The translations under genes were made by a program, and so were the position numbers. The notes beneath the pieces were generated by a model. That model had not been told where the DNA came from. It was given only the letters and a program-made list of their open reading frames with translations, and did no database searches. From positions 1-64,000 of the forward strand of contig JAKANO010000010.1 of NCBI GenBank assembly GCA_021812385.1: DNA of 64,000 nucleotides, given 5' to 3'. Source of the stretch: Pseudomonadota bacterium. Its GTDB lineage: Bacteria; Pseudomonadota; Gammaproteobacteria; Burkholderiales; Thiobacteraceae. Every line of letters begins with the position of its first letter. Position 1 is the first letter of the stretch. Shown here in pieces: positions 27,394 through 56,812 of this stretch.

Positions 27394-27984
27394 TTACACC
27401 GGCCGATTTTCACCCGGGTCGCGCACCGGCCCCATGAGGCTCAGGCCTTCCTCGTAAGTCATGGTGGGGAAAGTACCGGAAAATTTCAGCGCGGTATCCG
27501 CGATCTGATCCACCTTGCCGGCCGAATCCAGGCGCTTGAGATCGCCGCGTTCCAGGTACAGTAGATCCAGCAGTTCGTTGTACACCGTTGCTTCGTCGAT
27601 CGGCAGCACATAGAAAGTCGCGCCGCCGTAAGGCACCTGATAGCGCTTGCTCAGATCGATGTTGTTGCAATACATGAAATACTTGCCGTCCGGCTTCAAG
27701 GTGGAGCCCATCGCATCCGCCAGGGGCTTCAAGTATTCGAATGACAGTAGATAGGCCGCCATGAAATCGACGCCGGGGCTGCCCTCATGCGCCACGGCGA
27801 TTACTTGATCGGCGGTGATCTCCGGCGGGCGCGCTTCGTCGGCGAACTGTTGCGCGAACTTGATGGCGATTTCGCCGCGGAAGCCGAAGCGCCCGGCGCG
27901 GCCGGTGGCGGACTTGAACACCGGATTCTGCAAGCGCTTGTCGGCATCGAGTTGTTTGAAGGCGGTCTGGTCTAGTGTGGTCAT
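27394..27984 (-). CDS. Unrecognised protein in a NifA-linked operon (first gene)
   Basis: A 196-residue soluble protein from ATG 27984. The longer ORF start lies between the promoter and this ATG and has no better ribosome site. Mixed alpha/beta sequence with KFAQQFADEARPP and YFMYCNNIDLSKRYQVPYGG; only one Cys. No family recognised. It is the promoter-proximal gene of a leftward three-gene unit whose -24/-12 element lies 49 bases upstream. Confidence 0.65.
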   Translation of the reverse strand: MTTLDQTAFKQLDADKRLQNPVFKSATGRAGRFGFRGEIAIKFAQQFADEARPPEITADQVIAVAHEGSPGVDFMAAYLLSFEYLKPLADAMGSTLKPDGKYFMYCNNIDLSKRYQVPYGGATFYVLPIDEATVYNELLDLLYLERGDLKRLDSAGKVDQIADTALKFSGTFPTMTYEEGLSLMGPVRDPGENRPV

Positions 27985-44255: not shown

Positions 44256-44588
44256 ATGGCTTACGCCAATGTCTGCAAACAAAGCCTGCTGTACGAGGGC
44301 GAGTTGGTTCCCTGTAAGGTTGACGACAAGGAAATTATCATCATGTGGCCGGATGGCGGGCAGCCGAAAGCCTATGATGCAGCCTGCCCGCATGAAAAAG
44401 TATCGCTGGCGCGCGGCGACTTCAACGGCCGCATTCTCTACTGTATCGCCCATGGCTGGGTGTTTGATGGCCATAGCGGGAAATGTCTGCAACCCACTGG
44501 GTGGACGCTGAAGGAATATCCCTTGCGCTTCGTCGATGGCATGGTGCAGGTCGATCTCGCCAAAAACCCGGAACAGGAAATATCTTGA
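44256..44588 (+). CDS. Rieske-type 2Fe-2S ferredoxin, nif-associated
   Basis: 110-residue soluble Rieske protein. Cluster ligands CPH (ACPHEKVSL) and C-x2-H (YCIAHGWVFDG) are in place, and the protein ends without a membrane segment. GGAG precedes the ATG. It overlaps the following flavin oxidase gene (TTGA), so the two are coupled and may be redox partners. Confidence 0.88.
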   Translation: MAYANVCKQSLLYEGELVPCKVDDKEIIIMWPDGGQPKAYDAACPHEKVSLARGDFNGRILYCIAHGWVFDGHSGKCLQPTGWTLKEYPLRFVDGMVQVDLAKNPEQEIS

Positions 44589-46186
44589 GCCACGCCAAAG
44601 TAGATTCGGTATTGGACACAGTCATCGTCGGCGGCGGCCTGTGCGGCTTGGCGCTTGCCAACAGCCTGCATGGACAGGGACGCACTTTTGCTTTGTATGA
44701 GGCGCGATCCCGCCTGGGCGGGCGCATTCTTTCCGTGCCGGGCGCTGGCGACGCTATGGCGCTGGATCTTGGCCCAACCTGGTTTTGGCCCGACACCCAA
44801 CCGCGCATGAGCAAGCTGGTGGCCGATCTGGGCTTGCAGTTCTTTCCGCAACATGACAACGGTAGCGTGCTGCATCTCACCGATCACGACAAGCGTCCCG
44901 ACACCATTCGGGTGGCCGATCTGCACGGCGGCGCGCAACGCCTTGCAGGCGGCATGGGCGCTTTAGTGGATGCGCTTGCCAATGCTTTGCCGCCCGATGC
45001 AATGCACCTGGAACAGGAACTGCTCTCTGTCCGCGACCTGGGCGCGCATGTGGAGCTGCTGTTCCGTTGCGCTGAAGCTACGACGATCGTCCGCGCGCGT
45101 CAGGCCGTGCTGGCGATTCCGCCGCGCTTGCTCGACGAGCGCGTGCGCTTTGAACCCGCCCTGGATGCGGCGCTGCGCGCAGCGCTGCAGGCCACGCCGA
45201 CCTGGATGGCGGACAAGGCCAAGATCGTCGTGACTTACGATCAAGCCTTCTGGCGCGCGGCAGGGGAATCGGGCAATGCCTTTGTCAGCCATGAACAAGT
45301 GGTGCTGGGCGAAATTTTCGATGCCTGCGATGCGACAGCTGAACATGCGGCATTGGGCGGATTTTTCGCCCTCTCGCCGCAGTTCCGCGCCTCGGTGCAT
45401 CCGAGCAGCATGCCGATGCTGATATCGAGTCAACTGGTGCAAGTATTCGGTCCGCAAGCCGAGCATGGCGAACAGCACATGCAAGACTGGTCCACCGAAG
45501 CTTTCACCTGCAGCACGCTGGATATGACGCCGCTTGATGGCCATCCAGAATATGGCAACCCGCAACTGCGCCGTGCGCTATGGAGCAACAAACTTTTTCT
45601 CGGCAGCTCGGAAACCGCAGCTTATGGCGGCGGTTATATGGAAGGTGCACTGGAAGCGGCAGCGCGTATTCAACGCGCGCTTGCAATCGATGTTGACGCG
45701 GCGCAGCCAGCCAGCGGCAACGCTGCCTGTCTGACCCATTTCAACGCACAAGTGGCCGCGTTGCGGGTCGGCGCCATCGAGCGCTACCGCCAGCACTTGC
45801 AGCGCTATCTCGCCGCCCAAGCCAAGGAACAATTGACGCAGCGCGCCCTGCTCGACACCGTGGAGCAGGTATACAGCGAGGCGCTGGATCAACTCGGCGG
45901 ACTGCCTTTCGATACCGCAGCCGTAGGCGTGCAGCGCGGCCGTTCCGACCTTACCCCGAGCGTGCTGGCGGCGTTCGATGGTTTCAACAGCGCGCTGCTG
46001 GAAGAAGTCGCGCAATTCAATCGCGGCTCCTGCGCGATCTCGAACTTCCCCAATGAGCACGACCTCAACCAGGACTACATCGAAACCATCGCACGCGATC
46101 TCGCCGCCGCTTGGCGCGAATTTGCGATCAACGTGAACGGCGTGCTGCTGCACAAGGGCAAGGCGCAAGTGACACTAGCTGAATGA
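44585..46186 (+). CDS. FAD-dependent amine oxidase family protein
   Basis: 533-residue flavoprotein of the monoamine-oxidase superfamily. The FAD-binding motif VIVGGGLCGLALANSL is followed by EARSRLGGRI; the C-terminal FAD contact is in SETAAYGGGYMEGALEAA. A further C-terminal region of about 130 residues (after AIDVDAAQ) is unfamiliar and may be a separate helical domain. Start is probably TTG 44585, which overlaps the Rieske stop; the longer track start lies inside the Rieske gene. Substrate unknown. Confidence 0.8.
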   Translation: MSHAKVDSVLDTVIVGGGLCGLALANSLHGQGRTFALYEARSRLGGRILSVPGAGDAMALDLGPTWFWPDTQPRMSKLVADLGLQFFPQHDNGSVLHLTDHDKRPDTIRVADLHGGAQRLAGGMGALVDALANALPPDAMHLEQELLSVRDLGAHVELLFRCAEATTIVRARQAVLAIPPRLLDERVRFEPALDAALRAALQATPTWMADKAKIVVTYDQAFWRAAGESGNAFVSHEQVVLGEIFDACDATAEHAALGGFFALSPQFRASVHPSSMPMLISSQLVQVFGPQAEHGEQHMQDWSTEAFTCSTLDMTPLDGHPEYGNPQLRRALWSNKLFLGSSETAAYGGGYMEGALEAAARIQRALAIDVDAAQPASGNAACLTHFNAQVAALRVGAIERYRQHLQRYLAAQAKEQLTQRALLDTVEQVYSEALDQLGGLPFDTAAVGVQRGRSDLTPSVLAAFDGFNSALLEEVAQFNRGSCAISNFPNEHDLNQDYIETIARDLAAAWREFAINVNGVLLHKGKAQVTLAE

Positions 46187-46206: not shown

Positions 46207-46554
46207 GAAGATCGTAAAAATAAAATCATGCTGAACGTAGCTCAATTATTGGCACCGCGACGCTTTTGGGACCCCTGCGAGCCGCCGAGTAGCGCAGCCA
46301 GGCCGGGGGCAGTCGGCGGATTCATGTTTGAGCGCGTGGGCGCGCAGCGGATCGCGCGAGTTCGAATCTGCCGCCCGGCGTGGCGAGCAACGCAGGGAAG
46401 TCGCCCAGCGGGCGACCGGCGAACCGGGGTGCCTTTTTCTTTGGTTACATTTCTTTTGGGCAAGCAAAAGAAAGTAGCCGCCCCGCCGGGGCGTGACCGG
46501 CCCAAATACATTCCGCGCACAGCGCGACCCCTAACAAGAACCTATACGATTCTC
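46207..46554 (+). repeat. 348-bp interspersed repeat, copy A
   Basis: Begins GAAGATCGTA and ends TACGATTCTC, an imperfect terminal inverted repeat. The interior shares long identical blocks with copy B at 47231-47579, such as CTGCGAGCCGCCGAGTAGC and GCGGATTCATGTTTGAGCGC. No coding function: ORF-track entries here are unlikely to be genes. It fills the whole gap before the 46569 gene. Confidence 0.85.
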
Positions 46555-47230: not shown

Positions 47231-47579
47231 GAGGATCGTAAAAGTGTCTGCCCTGCATAACGTAGACCGACTGCTCGCGTTGAGACGCTTTTGGGGCCCC
47301 TGCGAGCCGCCGAGTAGCACAGCCGCGCCGGGGGCTGTCGGCGGATTCATGTTTGAGCGCGTGGCCGCGCAGCGGGTCGCGCGAGTTCGAATCCGACGCC
47401 CGGCGTGGCGAGCAACGCAGGGGAGTCGCCCAGCGGGCGACCGGCGAACCGGGGTGCCCTTCTTTTTGGTTAGCTTTTTCTTGGGCAAGCAAGAAAAAGT
47501 GACTGCCCCGCCGGGGCATGGCCGGCCCCAAACTAAATCGCGCGCAGGGCGACTCCTGACGGGGATTTATACGATTCTC
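47231..47579 (+). repeat. 349-bp interspersed repeat, copy B
   Basis: Begins GAGGATCGTA and ends TACGATTCTC. Same orientation and nearly the same length as copy A, with scattered substitutions. Both ends carry the imperfect inverted termini. No clear target-site duplication is visible. The rest of the 47222-47734 gap holds a degenerate copy of the ACCGCAGAGG family. Confidence 0.85.
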
Positions 47580-49316: not shown

Positions 49317-49410
49317 TGTAGCGCCGGCATCCTTGCCGGCAACAAACTCGATCCTGAGAATCGACCTTCTGCTCTATCTCCTAGGTTGCCGGCTGGTAGC
49401 CGGCGCTACA
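49317..49410. repeat. TGTAGCGCCGGC inverted repeat
   Basis: TGTAGCGCCGGC...GCCGGCAAC and its reverse complement GTTGCCGGC...GCCGGCGCTACA enclose about 40 bases. Each arm can also fold on itself. It lies between converging genes and might act as a transcription barrier. A repeat of this kind is common in many proteobacteria. Confidence 0.75.
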
Positions 49411-49456: not shown

Positions 49457-49786
49457 TCAAGAGACGCGGCAAGGCGTGATATCGGCAGTATCGATCAGCA
49501 CTTCTCCACGCTCGATCTTCAGCGGATATTCAGCGAGGGTGCACGGCTTGCCTTTAATGCAAGCGCCCGATGCGCCATCGAATTCCCAGTCGTGGTGAGC
49601 GCAGGTCAACACCGTTCCATTGAAGCGCGCATCGGCCAAGGGCTCGTTGGAATGCGGACACATGCCCTGGAAGGCGCGCGGCTGGCCATCCTGCGGCCAT
49701 ACGATCAAGACCAGCGTACGGTTGACCACCGCCACTTCATATTTACCTTTTCTTAATTCGTTTTCTTCACATGCCTTTGCAAACAT
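49457..49786 (-). CDS. Rieske-type 2Fe-2S ferredoxin (distal copy)
   Basis: 109 residues. Ligands in MCPHSNEPLA and TCAHHDWEFDG. It resembles the 44256 Rieske protein in size and overall layout, so the two are probably paralogues. Last gene of the leftward operon with truncated haemoglobin. Electron carrier role likely; partner unknown. Confidence 0.88.
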   Translation of the reverse strand: MFAKACEENELRKGKYEVAVVNRTLVLIVWPQDGQPRAFQGMCPHSNEPLADARFNGTVLTCAHHDWEFDGASGACIKGKPCTLAEYPLKIERGEVLIDTADITPCRVS

Positions 49787-49835
49787 CGCGCTTCCCTTTC
49801 GGAGTGTTTATATAGAAACCAGGCCGCCATGCATC

Positions 49836-50147
49836 TCAGGTGGAAATAAACACAAATTGTCCCGCCTTCAAATCCGGGTAGTTATCCCGTAGCGCTTGCG
49901 TGATTTTTCCGACTAGCCCCTTATCGCTCGCGGCGGATGGTCCGACAAAATCGGTGCCCTGGTGCCAGGTCTCAAAAAAGCAATGCAGGGTTTGGTCGTA
50001 GGACGCATCGGTGGGCGCGGTCTTGTCATGCAGCGCGGCGATCCCGCTTTTGTCGACTTCCAGGCGCCAATCCCGGTCATCGCCCACCGATCCCAACAGC
50101 GCCGAGACATCGGCGTTCGTCCATTCCAGATTCAAATCGATAGCCAT
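49836..50147 (-). CDS. Unknown 103-residue protein between two Rieske genes
   Basis: Sequence MAIDLNLEWTNADVSALLGS... with WRLEVDKSGIAALHD and LHCFFETWHQGTDFVGP. Soluble alpha/beta, no Cys cluster. Its fixed place between two Rieske genes suggests a shared complex or substrate, but no family is recognised. Spacing to the upstream Rieske gene is 19 bases. Confidence 0.6.
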   Translation of the reverse strand: MAIDLNLEWTNADVSALLGSVGDDRDWRLEVDKSGIAALHDKTAPTDASYDQTLHCFFETWHQGTDFVGPSAASDKGLVGKITQALRDNYPDLKAGQFVFIST

Positions 50148-50166
50148 GCCTTAATCCTTTCTTGCT

Positions 50167-50559
50167 TCAATCGCCACGATCCAGCCCATCTTCTTCGGCC
50201 AATTCCACGCCGGTCACGCACACATCGCCGTCGTCGATCACTAACGTAATCGGAGTCAATTGCTCACCCTTACAGGGCCCAATGAAGCAGTGCCCGGTGT
50301 CCAAGTCGAACTGGGCGCGATGATTGCCGCAGGTAAAGAAGTTGCCTTCCGCATCCATGAACTGTCCGTGCTCCGTATCCAAGCGACTGCCGGTATGGGG
50401 ACAGACGTTTTCGAATCCAAAAAATCGAGTGCCCCTGCGCGAAATCACGATGGGCCAAGGTTTGCTTTCACCCGTCTCCGAACGCACAGCCAGCCAAAAT
50501 CCTCGCGGCTGATCTTCGTCGATTTCGTTCGTGCGACAAATTGCAAATAGCTCGTTCAT
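50167..50559 (-). CDS. Rieske-type 2Fe-2S protein (proximal copy)
   Basis: 130 residues. It has ENVCPHTGSRLD and FTCGNHRAQFDLDTGHC ligand motifs of the soluble Rieske fold, similar to the small subunit-like Rieske proteins near oxygenases. Second gene of the leftward operon, 38 bases after the haemoglobin gene. Confidence 0.87.
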   Translation of the reverse strand: MNELFAICRTNEIDEDQPRGFWLAVRSETGESKPWPIVISRRGTRFFGFENVCPHTGSRLDTEHGQFMDAEGNFFTCGNHRAQFDLDTGHCFIGPCKGEQLTPITLVIDDGDVCVTGVELAEEDGLDRGD

Positions 50560-50597
50560 ATTGGGTATCCCGTTTCAAGTGATGGATGGAAGACAAT

Positions 50598-50999
50598 TTA
50601 TTCTGGCTGATTGCGCATGAAATCCGCGGTCTTGAAGAAGGCTTGCTGCAACTCCGCGCGCAGCTCTGCCGCAAGCCCGATCTCCTGCATGGCGCGCAGC
50701 ATGCACGCCATCCACTGATCGCGCTCGCTCACGCCTATGGCAAAGGGCATGTGGCGTTGACGTAAGAATGGCTGGCCAATGCGTTCGCTAAAAAGCTTGG
50801 GGCCGCCCATCCACTCGCTCAAGAACCAATACAGCTTGTTGCGCGATTCGCCCAGATCCTGCGGATGCAATTTGCGGACGCCGTAATAATCCGGATCCTC
50901 GTCCATCAGATCGTAAAACTTATCGACCAGTCCGCGCACGGCTTCCGCCCCGCCCAGCCGGTGAAAATGGGGATTTGCGTTGATGACTACAGTGTTCAT
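50598..50999 (-). CDS. Group II truncated haemoglobin
   Basis: 133 residues from ATG 50999, after a GGGGA ribosome site. Family residues are present: Tyr B10 in VDKFYDLM, the proximal His in FLRQRHMPF and the Trp at G8 in DQWMACM. Group II truncated globins bind oxygen or NO. In a nif island a role in oxygen buffering or NO detoxification is plausible. First gene of the four-gene operon. Confidence 0.9.
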   Translation of the reverse strand: MNTVVINANPHFHRLGGAEAVRGLVDKFYDLMDEDPDYYGVRKLHPQDLGESRNKLYWFLSEWMGGPKLFSERIGQPFLRQRHMPFAIGVSERDQWMACMLRAMQEIGLAAELRAELQQAFFKTADFMRNQPE

Positions 51000-51037
51000 G
51001 ATGGCTGTCCCCTTAAGCTTCCGAATGGGCTTGTGCT

Positions 51038-51060
51038 GTAAGGTTTGTAGCAAACCTTAC
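51038..51060. promoter_or_regulatory. Perfect 10-bp palindrome upstream of the haemoglobin operon
   Basis: GTAAGGTTTG-N3-CAAACCTTAC lies 39 bases before the haemoglobin start. It could be an operator or a leader hairpin. It does not match the NifA site. Confidence 0.65.
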
Positions 51061-51085
51061 GTTTTACGAGCGGCTTAGGGAATAA

Positions 51086-51101
51086 AGCAGAATATGTACC
51101 A
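51086..51101 (-). promoter_or_regulatory. Possible sigma-54 promoter of the haemoglobin-Rieske operon
   Basis: The minus strand reads TGGTAC-ATATT-CTGCT, keeping GG-N10-GC with two mismatches. No TGT-N10-ACA site occurs in the following 140 bases. The rest of the 51000-51241 gap shows nothing else. Confidence 0.35.
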
Positions 51102-55173: not shown

Positions 55174-55515
55174 ATGAAACGACAACAAGCCCCTGCCCTA
55201 TCACCTGAACTGGCCCAGCAACTCATCGCCCTCGGCCAGCGTTTGGCGCGCTTGCGCATTGCGCGGCGGATGCGCCAGGAAGATGCGGCGGCGCGCGCCG
55301 GCATATCGCGCAGTACGGCCGCGCTCATCGAAAAGGGGTCGGCTCGCTTGGCCATCGGACAAATCATTCGCTATCTCGACGCCATCGCGCCCGGAAAAAC
55401 CTTGACGCGACTGCTGACCGAAGAAGACCCGGCAGTGACTGCGCTATCCGCATCAGAGCGGCGGCGCCGGGCACGCACGCTATCCGAAGCCGAATTGAAA
55501 GAACTCGAATTCTGA
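55174..55515 (+). CDS. hipB: HipB-like antitoxin/regulator
   Basis: 113-residue XRE-family protein. The helix-turn-helix is in RMRQEDAAARAGISRSTAALIEKG, and a basic C-terminal tail follows. HipB neutralises HipA and represses the operon. It is 13 bases upstream of hipA. Confidence 0.85.
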   Translation: MKRQQAPALSPELAQQLIALGQRLARLRIARRMRQEDAAARAGISRSTAALIEKGSARLAIGQIIRYLDAIAPGKTLTRLLTEEDPAVTALSASERRRRARTLSEAELKELEF

Positions 55516-55528
55516 TCGCGCCCCCAAC

Positions 55529-56812
55529 ATGAGTACGAATCCCATCAATCGCAAGTTGGCCGTTTTCATCCATCTGGACGATCAATTCGTTCCGGCCGGG
55601 CTCCTAGGCATAACGGAAGCCGGGACGGACGTGCTCGCGTCCGAGTTCAAATACGGCCTGCTGTATCTCGATCGCGGGAACGCCATCGAGGTCGATCCGG
55701 TCAGCCTTTCCATCCAAGACAAGGGCGCGATTCGCGGTAAGGCATTGCTGCCGGTCGAGGGGCTCACGCTGTTCGGCGGGATACGCGACGCCGCGCCCGA
55801 TGCCTGGGGGCGCCGCGTAATCGAAGCCCGCCTGCAAGCGCCCATGAATAGCCTGCCGGAATCCACCTATCTGTTGCAGGCCGGCAGCCAACGCGTCGGT
55901 GCGCTCGATATCCGCCCAGCGCTGGACAGCCCGCCGATCACGATTCGCAATTCGGTGCATCGCCTCGAATATCTGATGGAAGCCGCCGACCGCATCGAAC
56001 AGGGCCAAGCGATTCCGTCGCAACTGGAAGATATTTTCGATGCCGGCAGCAACTTGGGCGGCATGCGGCCGAAGGCCACCGTCGAGGACGATGACGGCAC
56101 GTTGTGGCTCGCCAAATTTCCATCCCAGGGCGAACGCATGGATGTTCCCTGCATCGAAGCGGCCACCATGCGCCTCGCCGCCGAAGCCGGGCTGGACGTG
56201 CCGGCGGTAAAAACCGAAACCTTGCGTGGCAAGACCGTCATGATGATTCGTCGTTTCGACCGGGAATGGGTCGATGGCAAGCAACAGCGCCGGCATATGG
56301 TGAGCGCCCTGACCATGCTCGCTTGCGACGAGCGCGCATCGCGCGAAAAAAGCTATGGCGAAATCGCCGACGCGATTCGCGCCAGGAACGCGGGGCCGCT
56401 GATCAAAAGCGACAACCAGGAATTATTCGCGCGGATGGTTTTCAATATCCTCGTCACCAATGACGACGATCATCTGCGCAACCACGCATTCTTGTGGAAC
56501 AGGAAAGTACAAGGCTGGGGCTTGTCGCCGCTCTACGACGTGATGCCGCGCCCGACCATGGCGACGGAGCGTTTTCTCCATCTTGGGGTGGGCCAGCAAG
56601 GCCGTCTGGCGACCCTGGATAATGCGCTATCGGGCTATTCACGCTTCGGCATCACGCTGCAAGATGCGCACGAAAATATTGATCGCGTGTGGCGTGCCGT
56701 GCGCGAGTGGAAGACCTACTTTGAAGGGTACGGCGTGCCCGGTGACGAGATCAAAAAGGTCGCGCCAGCGTTCAGACACATAGATGATGTGTTAACTCGA
56801 TCACACACTTAA
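55529..56812 (+). CDS. hipA: HipA-family serine/threonine kinase toxin
   Basis: 427 residues. The HipA kinase fold shows IQDKGAIRGKALLPVEG early, LGGMRPKATVEDDDGTLWLAKFPS (nucleotide loop and Lys), the catalytic loop NILVTNDDDHLRNHAFLW and the metal site LSPLYDVMPRP. HipA kinases phosphorylate aminoacyl-tRNA synthetases and slow growth. It converges on modC with only five bases between the genes. Confidence 0.9.
   Translation: MSTNPINRKLAVFIHLDDQFVPAGLLGITEAGTDVLASEFKYGLLYLDRGNAIEVDPVSLSIQDKGAIRGKALLPVEGLTLFGGIRDAAPDAWGRRVIEARLQAPMNSLPESTYLLQAGSQRVGALDIRPALDSPPITIRNSVHRLEYLMEAADRIEQGQAIPSQLEDIFDAGSNLGGMRPKATVEDDDGTLWLAKFPSQGERMDVPCIEAATMRLAAEAGLDVPAVKTETLRGKTVMMIRRFDREWVDGKQQRRHMVSALTMLACDERASREKSYGEIADAIRARNAGPLIKSDNQELFARMVFNILVTNDDDHLRNHAFLWNRKVQGWGLSPLYDVMPRPTMATERFLHLGVGQQGRLATLDNALSGYSRFGITLQDAHENIDRVWRAVREWKTYFEGYGVPGDEIKKVAPAFRHIDDVLTRSHT

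Follow-up and report, generated by a model that had tools for sequence, protein, structure and literature searches.

Nitrogenase upkeep in aerobic diazotrophs without heterocysts is only partly understood. Among the ligands of group II truncated globins are O2 and related molecules, and turnover in these proteins requires a reductant; Rieske ferredoxins are single-electron carriers. In Nostoc, the cyanoglobin GlbN is a truncated globin encoded within the nif region and tied to nitrogen fixation. Globins in nif clusters are far from new (PMC3093359, PMC3912193): they are present in those of Herbaspirillum seropedicae, Burkholderia xenovorans and B. vietnamiensis (PMC3093359) and in an acid-mine nif cluster (PMC3912193), and the H. 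seropedicae cluster has two globin-like genes under a putative NifA promoter, for which O2 delivery has been proposed (PMC3093359). Truncated globins can also serve as NO dioxygenases when a reductant is supplied (reviewed in PMC3820574). Among open-licence papers, we found none that links nif-cluster globins to Rieske proteins or describes the small protein family reported below. These partners of a nif globin are what is new here, and the undescribed family is the most novel part.

Gene content of the operon

We analyzed a 64,000-nt stretch (hereafter the window) of a Thiobacteraceae genome, in which an operon of four leftward genes sits between fixABCX and nifEN; the contig carries nifH at 68114. 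The operon genes and two further genes of the island are as follows.

50598 to 50999, minus strand: globin, a group II truncated haemoglobin (trHbO) and first gene of the operon; 133 aa from ATG; PF01152, E=5e-35
50167 to 50559, minus strand: R130, the second Rieske protein; 130 aa; PF00355, E=1.5e-9
49836 to 50147, minus strand: orphan, a 103-aa protein of an undescribed family with DDRDWRLEVD, LHC and GTD.VG.SAA.DK motifs
49457 to 49786, minus strand: R109, a T4moC-like Rieske ferredoxin and last gene of the operon; 109 aa; PF00355, E=6e-17
44256 to 44588, plus strand: R44k, a third T4moC-like Rieske ferredoxin, beside the gene of an amine-oxidase-like flavoprotein
27394 to 27984, minus strand: p196, a 196-aa protein, 22.6 kb from the operon, with its own sigma-54/UAS-type promoter

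The open reading frames and Pfam matches agree with the initial annotation, which had recognized a globin, two Rieske proteins and a protein without known family. The four genes are separated by 49, 19 and 38 nt. We placed the globin start at the ATG at 50999 because a TTG-started 151-aa reading frame would begin within a palindrome that lies upstream. That the frames are coding is indicated by the existence of homologues (62–86% for the orphan) and by differences from the homologues in a Thiobacillus metagenome-assembled genome (MAG), which are biased toward the third codon position and most markedly in R130 (13/10/62 at positions 1/2/3) and in the orphan (12/5/30).

The globin matched the Bac_globin family of Pfam, and its nearest solved structure is 2xyk (phmmer, E=4e-24), with Mycobacterium tuberculosis HbO also matched; its profile is that of a 2/2 globin, and the alignment revealed both the proximal His and the conserved G8 Trp. 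In the globin tree, the window and Thiobacillus globins pair firmly (100/99). The nif-linked globins as a whole spread over several groups rather than forming one supported clade, and a single origin was not rejected (AU test, p=0.33).

All three Rieske proteins of the window keep the CxH...CxxH ligands intact, and C43, H45, C62 and H65 are invariant across nine sequences, as in single-domain Rieske-type ferredoxins. The solved structures nearest to R109 are those of the toluene-4-monooxygenase ferredoxin T4moC (E=7e-16), to which R44k is also closest. R130 is longer than R109 through inserts inside the domain, and its ligands lie in CPH and CGNH. R109 has homologues of 64–75% in the nif-positive genomes G194, G309, G320 and G208, and R130 has homologues of 85% in the Thiobacillus MAG, 74% in G478 and 47% in a Bradyrhizobium nif cluster. 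The third Rieske gene, which the initial annotation had placed near 44.3 kb, was found there beside the flavin amine oxidase-like gene. The accompanying view that three such proteins are unusual did not hold: several nif islands and nif-positive genomes have two or three T4moC-like ones, so the number is not exceptional. Two extra cysteines besides the cluster ligands (C6 and C76 of R109) are kept in all three Rieske proteins (spans compared: 50170–50559, 49460–49786 and 44256–44585) and in homologues. The R44k gene overlaps the longest reading of the amine-oxidase-like flavoprotein gene (44256–46186), and further copies of the flavoprotein gene lie in nif islands or next to other genes of the set (L003, L004, L082 and L108).

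The orphan family and its genomic neighbourhoods

The orphan matched no Pfam or NCBIfam model at thresholds as loose as E ≤ 10, and so showed no kinship to the nitrogenase-protection proteins FeSII and CowN insofar as the libraries contain models of both families. A role as a T4moD/MmoB-like effector, suggested by the toluene-4-monooxygenase system, was likewise unsupported by the Pfam scan. A profile search of solved structures returned chance matches only. The AlphaFold2 model built from four sequences scored low (mean pLDDT 54, pTM 0.44) and Foldseek found no similar structure (best E 0.4), so the predicted structure supports no conclusion. The alignment of five sequences contains 50 invariant columns.

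Homologues of the orphan (62–86%) occur in seven other genomes. Among 84,980 species genomes, scanned with short exact peptide patterns that miss distant relatives, we found it in the Thiobacillus MAG (86%), a Methylocystaceae MAG (69%) and Methyloglobulus morosus (66%). A plasmid search added Methylococcus sp. EFPC2 (66%), and 151 sampled methanotroph-order genomes yielded the EFPC2 gene again, at the same coordinates, and three further carriers. In a class-wide sample of 369 genomes, only the window's own genome had the orphan; a single distant match besides (E=2e-9) came from the nif-less genome G131 (L005, 1501–1782). From this relative, the family may have a wider, non-nif branch.

In the Thiobacillus MAG, nifS is followed by a divergent, contiguous p196-globin-R130-orphan series, all close homologues of the window genes, and globin, R130 and orphan stay one block in both Thiobacillaceae-type genomes (the window and L002). 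The EFPC2 plasmid carries nifHDK divergent from response regulator-globin-p196-R109 and, elsewhere, SelO-R44k-orphan-thioredoxin near GST, FAH-like, AAA, nifW, nifV and isc genes. R44k homologues adjoin the orphan in other methanotrophs too, as R44k-orphan-thioredoxin in G484 and R130-R44k-orphan in G478, and in M. morosus R109 and R44k lie within 6 kb of orphan-thioredoxin. The orphan thus lies beside a Rieske gene in five of the eight genomes (window, Thiobacillus, EFPC2, G484 and G478); because in the last three, all methanotrophs, the pair has no neighbouring globin, the globin need not sit with it. Genomes outside this set show further combinations: nifH divergent from globin-p196 in Paraburkholderia sprentiae, P. 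aromaticivorans and G271; response regulator-p196-R109 divergent from nifH in G194; nifV, nifW and fixC in one stretch with R109, R44k, the amine-oxidase homologue and a globin in G309; and an R130-like gene (47%) with p196 between fdxB and nifS in Bradyrhizobium BWA-3-5. These arrangements indicate that the same pool of small genes has been shuffled among alpha-, beta- and gamma-proteobacterial nif islands.

Two other features of the island were seen. A 300-nt direct repeat (46229–46528 and 47254–47553, 85% identical) flanks small genes at 46.57–47.2 kb and is possibly a dispersed repeat or a mobile-element remnant. A HipB/HipA-like gene pair, recognized by eye from the translations, lies at 55174–56812, and HipA-domain genes are also present in a Bradyrhizobium nif region (L039).

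The gene nifH is present in each of the eight genomes that have a close homologue of the orphan (Thiobacillaceae and methanotrophs). Since 80 of the 151 methanotroph-order genomes are nifH-positive, finding nifH with the orphan in four of four gives p~0.08; the eight-of-eight count is consistent with a nif link and statistically weak taken alone. In G484, G478 and G464 the orphan is distant from nifH or on another contig. Conversely, only one of the 31 nifH-positive genomes in the class sample has the orphan, and two nif-positive species of the window's genus lack it, so the orphan module is an optional accessory. Within these searches nothing pointed to a wide spread of the operon without nif genes, the distant G131 protein being the only orphan match in a nif-less genome.

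Upstream palindrome and promoter signals

The initial annotation had pointed to a perfect inverted repeat and a sigma-54-like sequence upstream of the operon, and both are real.

51038 to 51060, no strand: presumed leader element, a perfect 10-bp inverted repeat with 3-nt spacer, 38 nt ahead of the globin ATG
51086 to 51101, minus strand: sigma-54-like -24/-12 element TGGTACATATTCTGCT, scoring 12.7 of 14.9

The repeat, GTAAGGTTTG-N3-CAAACCTTAC, is exact. Its presence is unremarkable, because about one such repeat (arm of at least 10, loop of at most 10; ~1.1 under a first-order Markov model) is expected per 64 kb; the window has four distinct places, or six counting overlaps. The sole special point of the palindrome is its location directly upstream of the operon. 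It is single-copy in the 3.29-Mb genome, with no second copy at up to three mismatches that would mark a regulon operator. Nor does the nearest relative offer a convincing counterpart: the aligned stretch of the Thiobacillus MAG keeps 7 of 10 pairs, no better than shuffled sequences, and favours a different hairpin.

Sigma-54 sites were scored with a simple weighting of our own (maximum 14.9). The TGGTACATATTCTGCT element ranks 9 of 1018 GG-N10-GC sites in the window, and 1% of random 120-nt stretches match its score; if transcription starts from it, the palindrome lies in the leader. The 450 nt upstream of the globin start contain no NifA-type TGT-N10-ACA site, and Rfam revealed no RNA family in 40–64 kb. 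Just downstream of the operon, an inverted pair of exact GTAGCGCCGGC / GCCGGCGCTAC elements (49318–49409) recalls GTAG-type REP elements and may be a terminator or a REP pair.

Both kinds of signal accompany p196, a protein with no Pfam or NCBIfam match whose gene is immediately upstream of the globin in Thiobacillus. The promoter of the Thiobacillus MAG gene combines a near-consensus sigma-54 site (TGGCACCGGTTTTGCT, 14.4 of 14.9) with three TGT-N10-ACA sites, of which two overlap. The window gene has a sigma-54 site at -64 and a UAS at -226, and both kinds of site are also present at the EFPC2 response regulator-globin-p196-R109 genes. Of random 450-nt stretches taken from the window, 0.8% contain a sigma-54 site of at least 12.7 together with a UAS. 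In alpha-, beta- and gamma-proteobacteria p196 turns up repeatedly next to nifH or a nif-linked globin, and it may mark nif better than the orphan does.

Possible roles and comparison with known systems

The initial annotation had proposed a system protecting nitrogenase from O2 or NO. The link to nitrogen fixation in this proposal is supported: sequence comparison makes the nif association of the module well supported, through gene neighbourhood, nifH co-occurrence and sigma-54/NifA-type promoters in relatives. Both the gene families and the published interpretation of nif-cluster globins (PMC3093359) make a role in O2 or NO handling plausible. Taken together, the operon is probably an accessory redox module for nitrogen fixation in the presence of O2 or NO.

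In detail, we somewhat favour a module whose proteins would be made when nitrogenase is made. The T4moC-like Rieske ferredoxins would reduce the globin haem one electron at a time, either to hold it in the ferrous state or to drive turnover, and the globin would then deliver O2 to respiration or consume O2 or NO near nitrogenase. The orphan would serve a Rieske protein as coupling or docking partner, a role suggested by its place beside a Rieske gene in five of eight genomes. Several observations count against this module: the window's own operon promoter has no NifA site, two nif-positive species of the genus lack the orphan, the orphan is far from nifH or on another contig in G484, G478 and G464, the methanotroph-order count reaches only p~0.08, the nif-linked globins form no single supported clade, and the methanotroph R44k-orphan pairs lack a neighbouring globin.

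The last observation somewhat favours a different division of labour, in which the globin delivers O2 to respiration during microaerobic fixation, as already proposed for the Herbaspirillum globin (PMC3093359), and the Rieske and orphan genes are merely co-regulated and serve a separate task, such as an oxygenase or a redox maturation step. The globin-R130-orphan block kept in the window and in L002 argues against such a separation, which we regard as possible but rather doubtful.

An NO-detoxification operon, with the globin as a Rieske-reduced NO dioxygenase, an NO sensor acting at the palindrome and the nif island incidental, is unlikely. The NO dioxygenase activity of truncated globins supplied with reductant (PMC3820574) and the position of the palindrome immediately before the globin gene would fit it. 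However, the homologues track nif genes over three proteobacterial groups, the palindrome has no second genomic copy and lacks convincing conservation, and no known NO-regulator box was recognized by eye.

The location among fixABCX, nifS, nifV and nifEN might suggest that the Rieske proteins supply electrons for nitrogenase or cofactor assembly. The known Rieske ferredoxins of this type lie near -100 to -160 mV, a potential too high for Fe protein reduction, which makes such donation very improbable. That housekeeping trHbO and Rieske genes landed in the nif island by chance hardly deserves credence: such genes are common in nif-less genomes and a second trHbO (64% identical) lies on contig C12, outside the nif contig, but the Thiobacillus and EFPC2 arrangements already largely refute it, partners and order being conserved across genomes and NifA-type promoters being present in relatives.

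Returning to the accessory module, a bolder extension, which we advance only tentatively, is that the orphan founds a new nitrogenase accessory family coupling Rieske ferredoxins to a nif-regulated globin, and that this dedicated O2- or NO-consuming redox chain would enable nitrogen fixation in aerobic methanotrophs and Thiobacillus-like bacteria. Transferable and nif-linked, a set of globin, Rieske and new-family genes would make the O2/NO-handling hypothesis directly testable by gene removal, some of the set being present in the cultivable methanotrophs Methylococcus sp. EFPC2 and Methyloglobulus morosus, and such a set could help the engineering of nitrogen fixation.

Among known systems, Nostoc GlbN differs from the window globin in being a group I, cyanobacterial protein that is not known to have Rieske partners. 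T4moC is the closest solved relative of R109 and R44k and, like them, a single-domain Rieske electron carrier; in contrast to its system, no diiron hydroxylase or effector genes were recognized beside the operon's Rieske genes, and the orphan has no Pfam match to effector families. The globins of H. seropedicae, B. xenovorans and B. vietnamiensis share with the window a globin-like gene in a nif cluster and a proposed O2 role; no Rieske or orphan partners are mentioned for them, and the H. seropedicae gene has a putative NifA-regulated promoter (PMC3093359), whereas the window operon has no NifA site. The Legionella truncated haemoglobin-ferredoxin reductase operon, with a reductase flavoprotein, NO-sensor control (NsrR) and no nif link, resembles the window operon in pairing a truncated globin with a presumed dedicated reductant (PMC3820574).
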